From contig JAURMX010000053.1 of assembly GCA_030830475.1 (NCBI GenBank), forward strand, positions 1-40,696: a DNA stretch of 40,696 bases, read 5' to 3'. Origin of the DNA: Candidatus Nanopelagicales bacterium. Lineage in GTDB: Bacteria; Actinomycetota; Actinomycetes; Nanopelagicales; Nanopelagicaceae. Below are positions 6,015 to 7,497 of this stretch, in pieces. Below the pieces are notes generated by a model. It was not told the DNA's origin, searched no databases, and worked only from the letters and a program-made list of their open reading frames with translations. The translations under genes were made by a program, and so were the position numbers. How positions within the stretch are numbered: the first letter of the stretch is position 1; the number at the start of each line of letters is the position of its first letter.

Positions 6015-7337
6015 ATGTCTTCCCAAGAATTAGATGCAGTAACCATTGCCAAGCAGCAAGAGTTTGTTTTGCGCACCTTAGAAGAGCGTGATATTCGCTT
6101 TGTTCGGCTCTGGTTTACTGATGTGTTGGGCTTCCTCAAATCAGTTGCCATTGCGCCACCAGAGTTAGAAAGTGCATTTGCCGAAGGTATTGGATTTGAT
6201 GGATCTGCAATTGAAGGTTTTGCGCGCGGAACTGAATCTGACATGTTGGTAAAGCCAGATCCGGCAACCTTTTCTGTCTTGCCATGGCGCACTGAAAAAC
6301 CTGGTGCCGCTCGAATTTTCTGTGACATTACCTTGCCCGATGGAAATCCATCTCCAGTAGATCCTCGGAATGTTTTAAAGCGAACCCTAGATAAAGCCGC
6401 CAAAATGGGTTTCACCTGTTACACACATCCAGAGATTGAATTCTTTTTATTCAGAGATGCGCCGGTCGCTGGTGTAAAACCAACTCCAGTTGATTACGGC
6501 GGCTACTTTGATCACACGCCGACCGCTGTTGGCCACGACTTCCGTCGTCAAGCGATTACCTTGCTCGAGGCAATGGGTGTATCAGTTGAATTTAGTCATC
6601 ATGAAGGTGCACCGGGACAGCAAGAGATTGATTTGCGATATGCAGATGCCTTGAGCACCGCCGACAACATCATGACCTTTAGACACATCATCAAAGAGGT
6701 CGCGCTGGATCAGGGTTTCCATGCTTCATTTATGCCAAAACCATTCACAGAACACGCGGGATCAGGAATGCATACCCACTTCTCGCTTTTCCAAGGCGAG
6801 AAAAATGCTTTTTATGAAGCCGGGAAAGAGGAGCAACTCTCTGATACTGGAAGATCTTTTATCGCTGGAATTATCAAACACGCGCCTGAGTTCATTGCGG
6901 TAACTAATCAATGGGTTAACTCATACAAGCGAATTCACGGGGGCGGGGAAGCACCTGCAAAGATTTCATGGGGCAAGGAAAATCGTGATGCGATGATCCG
7001 CATCCCGATGTACAAACCAAAGAAAGAAAACTCCACTCGCATCGAATTTAGAGCGCCGGATTCTGCATGTAACCCGTATCTAGCTTTTGCTGTGACTATT
7101 GCAGCTGGATTAAAAGGGGTTGAAGAGGGGTACCAACTTGAAAAGGTCTCAAATCCTAAGACGCTACCTGCTAATTTAAATGAAGCAATTGGTGAAATGG
7201 AGAAGAGCCAGTTGGTTCGAGAAACCCTCGGTGAGCATGTATTTGAGTACTTCCTTCGCAATAAGCGTGCGGAATGGTTGGAGTACCAAAAACAGGTAAC
7301 CGCCTTCGAGCTTGATCGATACTTGCCAGTTCTTTAA
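6015..7337 (+). CDS. glnA: Type I glutamine synthetase, GlnA2-like
   Basis: The enzyme makes glutamine from glutamate, ammonia and ATP. The 440 residues match mycobacterial GlnA2 closely from memory, for example EFVLRTLEERDIRFVRLWFT at the N-terminus and IGFDGSAIEGFAR after it. Further active-site motifs are HPEIEFFLF, HHEGAPGQQEIDLRYADAL, GSGMHTHFSLF and SACNPYLAF. The NLYxLP tyrosine that is adenylylated in GSI-beta enzymes is missing (NPKTLPANL instead), so control by adenylylation is not expected (GSI-alpha type). The start at 6015 has no good ribosome binding site; CACAAT at 6002-6007 lies 7 nt upstream and could be the -10 of a leaderless mRNA. leuA follows after 160 bp. Confidence 0.95.
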   Translation: MSSQELDAVTIAKQQEFVLRTLEERDIRFVRLWFTDVLGFLKSVAIAPPELESAFAEGIGFDGSAIEGFARGTESDMLVKPDPATFSVLPWRTEKPGAARIFCDITLPDGNPSPVDPRNVLKRTLDKAAKMGFTCYTHPEIEFFLFRDAPVAGVKPTPVDYGGYFDHTPTAVGHDFRRQAITLLEAMGVSVEFSHHEGAPGQQEIDLRYADALSTADNIMTFRHIIKEVALDQGFHASFMPKPFTEHAGSGMHTHFSLFQGEKNAFYEAGKEEQLSDTGRSFIAGIIKHAPEFIAVTNQWVNSYKRIHGGGEAPAKISWGKENRDAMIRIPMYKPKKENSTRIEFRAPDSACNPYLAFAVTIAAGLKGVEEGYQLEKVSNPKTLPANLNEAIGEMEKSQLVRETLGEHVFEYFLRNKRAEWLEYQKQVTAFELDRYLPVL

Positions 7338-7352
7338 TGAGTTAGATAACCT
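7323..7352 (+). promoter_or_regulatory. Promoter of the leu leader and leuA
   Basis: TTGCCA (7323-7328), an 18-bp spacer and TAACCT (7347-7352) form a good sigma70-like promoter. It overlaps the end of glnA. The predicted +1 is the A of the leader ATG at 7359, so the leader peptide mRNA would be leaderless. Confidence 0.6.
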
Positions 7353-7358
7353 TTGACC

Positions 7359-7424
7359 ATGTTGCGCAGCGAACTGCTTTCACTAAACACACTCCTCCTT
7401 CGCTGCCGTGGCGAGGCCATTTAA
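7359..7424 (+). CDS. Leucine-rich leader peptide of leuA
   Basis: This 21-residue peptide, MLRSELLSLNTLLLRCRGEA plus a final Ile, contains seven leucines written with TTG, CTG, CTT, CTA, CTC, CTC and CTT. Three of them are consecutive at 7392-7400. It ends at TAA inside the loop of a terminator hairpin and lies 73 bp upstream of leuA. This is the classic layout of a leucine attenuation leader, as known for leuA in other actinobacteria. It is too short for usual gene finding. It has no ribosome binding site and is probably translated from a leaderless mRNA. Confidence 0.8.
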   Translation: MLRSELLSLNTLLLRCRGEAI

Positions 7425-7450
7425 CCGGTCTCCTCGCTGCGGGGTTTTTT
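7366..7450 (+). terminator. Leucine attenuator with alternative hairpins
   Basis: The terminator stem pairs CCGTGGCGAGG (7406-7416) with CCTCGCTGCGG (7432-7442), 11 pairs including two G-U pairs, followed by GG and six T (7445-7450). Competing pairings are visible. GCAGCGAA (7366-7373) pairs perfectly with TTCGCTGC (7399-7406). CCTTCGC (7397-7403) pairs with GCGAGG (7411-7416) with one bulged T, which would prevent the terminator. GCAGCGA can also pair with TCGCTGC at 7434-7440. A ribosome stalled at the triple-Leu codons would reach into the left terminator arm and allow read-through into leuA. Confidence 0.75.
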
Positions 7451-7497
7451 ATCGCCGGTTAACGATCCGGTAAACCCAATAGATTTAAGGAGTAGCA

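Follow-up and report, generated by a model that had tools for sequence, protein, structure and literature searches.

Upstream of leuA in a Nanopelagicales contig lies a short leucine-rich open reading frame (ORF) within RNA that can form several helices. The question raised by this locus is whether these parts form a transcription attenuator, as an initial annotation of the sequence proposed, or a different kind of leucine control. Escherichia coli trp and leu are governed by ribosome-mediated transcription attenuators, with terminator and antiterminator hairpins and a U tract. The window, meaning the whole stretch of DNA analyzed here, is 40,696 nucleotides in length.

The leuA Locus and Its Leader ORF

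The features of the locus, all on the forward strand, are listed below with the basis for each.

7347–7352, +: −10-like box TAACCT, read from the sequence, with a TANNNT counterpart in relatives
7359–7424, +: leader ORF MLRSELLSLNTLLLRCRGEAI and stop, 7 Leu codons (sequence and relatives)
7366–7373, +: 1:2 hairpin arm 1, GCAGCGAA, pairs with 7399–7406
7392–7400, +: Leu triple CTC CTC CTT, of which 7395–7400 is the anti-Shine–Dalgarno (anti-SD) strand of the base stem (cognate test, 150 leuA loci)
7399–7406, +: 1:2 hairpin arm 2, TTCGCTGC, pairs with 7366–7373
7407–7416, +: P2 stem 5’ strand, the left terminator arm of the initial annotation (covariation, 61 sequences)
7422–7424, +: leader stop codon TAA, in the P2 loop (fixed distance from the Leu triple in relatives)
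7424–7429, +: pseudoknot 5’ strand ACCGGU, in the P2 loop (covariation, slid controls)
7432–7441, +: P2 stem 3’ strand (covariation, 61 sequences)
7442–7447, +: P3 5’ strand GGGTTT, including the start of the T run (cognate test, 58 Nanopelagicales)
7454–7459, +: pseudoknot 3’ strand GCCGGU (covariation, cognate test)
7472–7477, +: P3 3’ strand AAACCC (cognate test, 58 Nanopelagicales)
7487–7492, +: leuA Shine–Dalgarno (SD) sequence AAGGAG, complementary to 7395–7400 (sequence and cognate test)
7498–9213, +: leuA, 2-isopropylmalate synthase (NCBIfam NF002991 and TIGR00970 above cut-off)

The leader is 21 codons long, and the leuA start codon is GTG at 7498. Direct reading places the leader ORF, the stems, and the T run where the initial annotation had them. 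Its count of seven Leu codons is correct (in order TTG, CTG, CTT, CTA, CTC, CTC, CTT), but these are of five kinds rather than the six it gave. The promoter it proposed has both hexamers at the spacing described, with TTGCCA at 7323–7328, 18 nucleotides from TAACCT, and the ATG at 7359 lies 6 nucleotides past the box; a plain sigma-70 scan found no promoter passing at the leader. The −35 hexamer falls within the 3’ end of the upstream gene for glutamine synthetase, glnA, in the codons of ...YLPVL and stop, so its conservation is not independent evidence wherever glnA is upstream. The bare minimum-energy fold is ordinary (z of −1.42; 16 of 200 shuffles fold equally well). Taken with the sigma-70 scan, this makes the single-sequence evidence weak, and it is the comparative data, not the single sequence, that place the feature beyond chance.

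Two other regions of the window were noted. The gene order before leuA at 2593–7337, from NAD synthetase to glutamine synthetase, resembles the IMCC26103 heliorhodopsin-glutamine synthetase locus (PMC9529153); between these two genes are candidate cysteine synthase and serine acetyltransferase ORFs. On the reverse strand, this actinobacterial sequence has a match of 86 bits to the Rfam cspA thermoregulator (RF01766) at 35776–36194, which may only reflect a csp coding region within the model.

Conservation of the Leader Peptide

Loci containing leuA were gathered from the same genus and from public genomes, and about 180 relatives were compared overall. An obvious homologue of the window element is present in 82 distinct leuA upstream regions and in none of 8 others. 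In all 82 relatives, the leader stop follows the first base of the Leu triple by exactly 27 or 30 nucleotides, and the leader C-terminus reads LLLxCRxxx or a close variant. A TANNNT box is located 6–7 nucleotides ahead of the leader start in 73 of the 82. The scan for this box picked among candidate starts and mildly favored those with a box, although the spacing found is far tighter than the permitted 4–11 nucleotides. The leaderless Leu leader peptide described before leuA is thus borne out, its leaderless start being suggested by the conserved box-to-start spacing.

Outside the genus, most leaders are 13–15 amino acids long and end in LLLxCRxxx directly before the stop. Leaders specific to the genus are longer (21–25 amino acids, with 6–10 Leu codons), the extra codons lying between arm 1 and the triple.

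Eight related leuA genes without the element are L042, L043, L045, L052, L056, L057, L061, and L077. In these loci, the leuA start codon is about 6–9 nucleotides past a −10-like box right behind glnA; from this spacing, leuA itself is probably leaderless there.

Conserved Pairings

P2 is paired in 97.7% of cells across 61 sequences, with both-sided changes at 4 pairs. The pseudoknot shows both-sided changes at 6 of 6 pairs in the same sequences, and its slid controls collapse. For P2 and the pseudoknot together, 95.7% of cells are standard pairs, compared with 37–53% when slid by 1–3 columns, and both-sided changes occur at 10 of 16 pairs (0 of 500 shuffles). For both helices, the cognate pairing beats every permutation across 178 loci. 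A third helix, P3, is cognate-specific in 58 Nanopelagicales, where the cognate pairing scores −9.67 kcal/mol against −7.58 kcal/mol when permuted (0/10000). The accessible text of the 2005 paper on the LEU element (PMC1262725) makes no mention of P3. Sequence is also conserved beyond the needs of pairing, at GCCG, CGRGG, and CGCGG.

The Putative Terminator and Antiterminator

The pairing labeled 3:4 in the initial annotation (7406–7416 with 7432–7442) is GC-rich, has 11 pairs, and is followed after 2 nucleotides by T6 at 7445–7450. The stop codon TAA lies inside its loop, as had been stated. Its reading as an intrinsic terminator was not supported by comparison. A T run of at least 5 follows the hairpin in only 3 of 82 loci, two of which are the window and its 96% relative. 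T6 occurs only in the window’s species and its nearest relative; elsewhere in the genus, GGGGTTTTAAC, GGGGTTAGTC, or GGGGTCAGTC takes its place. The hairpin is the first stem of the conserved pseudoknot, and P3 uses GGGTTT as its 5’ strand, which gives the start of the T run a structural role.

The proposed 2:3 antiterminator (CTTCGC at 7398–7403 with GCGAGG at 7411–7416) fared no better. Its central pair is broken in more than half of 143 distinct sequences, and its probability is 0.00 at all simulated ribosome positions. The 1:2 hairpin is 85% paired within Nanopelagicales but 47% class-wide, similar to slid controls; it was rejected as a class-wide feature and kept for Nanopelagicales only. 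The initial interpretation is only partly supported: the leaderless Leu leader peptide stands, whereas the terminator with its 2:3 antiterminator does not find support.

The initial annotation had also suggested direct blocking of the hairpin by a ribosome on the triple-Leu cluster. The geometry of this proposal is sound, in that a simulated ribosome with codons 12–14 in the P site abolishes the 3:4 hairpin. A ribosome at codons 15–21 masks it too, and because the stop codon is in the hairpin loop, a ribosome finishing at the stop hides the hairpin no less completely than one that has stalled. Since a ribosome anywhere from triple to stop blocks it equally, direct blocking would not by itself report leucine.

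A terminator-type leucine attenuator was rejected, as neither a conserved U-tract terminator nor a conserved exclusive antiterminator was found. Judged by this comparison, such an attenuator is not what evolution conserved at this element, although the hairpin and T6 could still terminate in the window’s species.

The Leu-Codon Run and the leuA Shine–Dalgarno Sequence

In the window, CUCCUU (7395–7400), within the Leu triple, can pair with AAGGAG (7487–7492), the SD of leuA, to form a base stem. Across 150 leuA loci, the cognate Leu run:SD value is −11.35 against −10.41 when swapped (sd of 0.17, 0 of 5000 permutations), with shared ancestry still present in the swaps. An uninterrupted helix of at least 6 is found in 119 of the 150 loci, compared with 6 of 50 when a control stretch just upstream is used. 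Both strands have changed together in L065 (CTACTT/AAGTAG) and in L190 (CTCCTGCT/AGCAGGAG). At leuB-class loci, swapping does not weaken the SD pairing.

In a pseudoknot-free nested fold without a ribosome, the base stem of the window has a probability of 0.10, and the SD is partly held by other pairings. With a ribosome on Leu codons 6–9, the unpaired probability of the leuA SD rises in a simple fold from 0.29 to 0.86–0.91. A stall on the Leu triple itself gives an SD exposure of only 0.51–0.65 in the pseudoknot-free fold.

Synonymous resampling indicates that selection of the Leu codons for SD pairing is weak overall and reversed in GC-rich genomes, where the codons pair with the SD worse than random synonymous codons would. 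Codon choice is therefore not explained by SD pairing alone. A contingency comparison of CTGCT with AGCAG showed no useful association. In the leuA triple, CTT occupies the third position in 74 of 75 loci of the first set and in 66 of 73 GC-rich loci; in the latter, CTT makes up 1.0% of 1215 leuA Leu codons counted. SD pairing would favor CTC at this position, yet CTT is near-invariant, which may reflect selection for a slow or rare codon.

Distribution and Copies before Other Genes

A covariance model was built for the element and used to scan genomes. The window’s genome contains one significant copy. The element is present in 289 of 297 sampled genomes of the class, with few copies outside the class. 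Rfam returned no match at gathering score for the window element or its relatives.

Some genomes carry further copies before leuC and before leuB-ilvE (gene identities from NCBIfam and tblastn). Four LEU elements (L152, L154, L164, and L168) lie directly before leuC and have triples made up of Leu codons only. There are 24 copies of the leuB-ilvE type (L234–L249, L251–L256, L165, and L170), all with the same P2, pseudoknot, and stop architecture. Ile is in the regulatory triple of all 24, usually with Val and Leu (VLLI, VVLI, LVIL, etc.), whereas only 1 of 150 leuA copies has Ile or Val in the triple (L095; ATC CTC CTT, Ile). The leuB-ilvE-type copies precede a small conserved ORF of the MSEEAQKARQALQESMDLREQGHSDD type, which starts 134–191 nucleotides past the triple and is followed by leuB. 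This small ORF has no Pfam match, and in two of the 24 (L254 and L255) the stretch examined contained no leuB at the usual distance.

Ile, Val, and Leu codons before leuB-ilvE on an unchanged RNA indicate that codon identity follows the pathway. Such a switch is hard to explain unless the leader is read by ribosomes responding to charged tRNA.

One further LEU-like element, at L158 (ORF 1787–2221, reverse strand), has Val/Leu codons (LVLVV) and is located before a stand-alone 145-amino-acid protein resembling the LeuA allosteric domain (PF08502).

Relationship to Known Elements

Comparison identifies the window element as a member of the LEU element of Seliverstov et al. 2005. As described in the accessible text of that paper (PMC1262725), the LEU element lies upstream of leuA and combines a Leu leader ORF with a pseudoknot and with a base stem in which the run of Leu codons pairs with the leuA SD. 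The window element is directly upstream of leuA, with a Leu-run ORF, a conserved pseudoknot, and a Leu run complementary to the leuA SD; it shares with that account the lack of a conserved terminator. It differs from the published description, so far as that text goes, in its longer genus-specific leader, in P3 (supported in Nanopelagicales), and in the local T6.

Streptomyces lividans LeuL1 (MRFGLLLLSCRGEGL), before leuA, is leaderless and without a typical Rho-independent terminator (PMC8079986). It resembles the window leader as a Leu run directly upstream of leuA, in its leaderless state, in LLL-x-C-R, and in the atypical terminator. The Corynebacterium leu leaders (PMC4046766, PMC5784534) are likewise Leu-run leaders directly upstream of leuA. 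Unlike the window leader, those of S. lividans and Corynebacterium are shorter, and their mechanism was not worked out. The Corynebacterium ilvB-II motif (PMC10272879) also senses tRNA charging through a leader peptide in which the regulated amino acid is abundant, but it uses terminator and antiterminator hairpins and a U tract. In the element described here, unlike in transcription attenuators, the regulatory codons have, by the pairing data, the SD of the structural gene as their conserved partner.

Added here are comparative support for the mechanism, P3, a distribution across nearly the whole class, and the copies with switched codons. Because novelty was judged against open-licence papers only, earlier reports of the leuC and leuB-ilvE copies may exist.

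Mechanism and Alternative Explanations

Positions 7347–7497 are read here as a LEU element in which a leaderless Leu ORF within a pseudoknotted RNA acts as a translational attenuator, a reading given a probability of roughly 0.6. With Leu-tRNA plentiful, the ribosome would clear the Leu triple and leave at the stop inside P2. The RNA would then refold, CUCCUU would pair with the leuA SD, and leuA would be off. With Leu-tRNA short, a ribosome stalled on the Leu codons would cover the anti-SD strand and leave the SD free. P2, the pseudoknot, and P3 would keep both base-stem strands near each other.

Transcription attenuation, classical or by direct block, would make the 3:4 hairpin and T6 an intrinsic terminator prevented by a ribosome stalled on the Leu codons. 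The 11-pair GC-rich hairpin, the T6 of this species, and the simulated loss of the hairpin with codons 12–14 in the P site all fit. This is nonetheless quite unlikely, as the T run is missing from most of the genus, its start belongs to P3, the 2:3 pairing is not conserved, and the stop in the loop lets a ribosome beyond the triple mask the hairpin too; a terminator may contribute locally in the window’s species. Termination could instead be by Rho, with translation of the leader or of leuA shielding the transcript. Rho-dependent termination is suggested for terminator-less Cys leaders of this phylum in the accessible text of PMC1262725, and translational repression would anyway expose leuA mRNA to Rho. 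That explanation is very unlikely, since it accounts for neither the Leu:SD complementarity nor the pseudoknot nor the fixed stop position.

The 2005 proposal, as it appears in the same text, was a binding site for a regulatory protein (ML1624 orthologues), with the Leu codons incidental. It agrees with the sequence conservation in excess of pairing needs, and mutation work cited there gave effects inconsistent with classical attenuation. It is unlikely because the codons become Val/Leu/Ile before leuB-ilvE while the structure stays, and because leader frame and stop are fixed in all 82 relatives. Translational attenuation is inferred to be the most likely of the readings weighed, ahead of terminator, Rho, and protein-ligand.

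A broader proposal, put at somewhat less than even odds, is that LEU-type elements are modular, class-wide translational attenuators. Their leader codons would double as the anti-SD strand, sensing tRNA charging and gating the SD, and would be retuned to Val/Leu/Ile before leuB-ilvE with Leu kept before leuC.

Since its description in 2005, and after inconclusive mutational work, the LEU element has stayed a conserved RNA with no agreed mechanism. Its occurrence in nearly all sampled genomes of the class, the absence of a conserved terminator, and the copies with switched codons now pose a direct question: are the codons effective because they are read, because they pair with the SD, or for both reasons? 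If translational attenuation holds, one RNA strand would both sense tRNA charging and gate a ribosome-binding site, in an element that precedes leucine biosynthesis genes in industrial and pathogenic actinobacteria alike.
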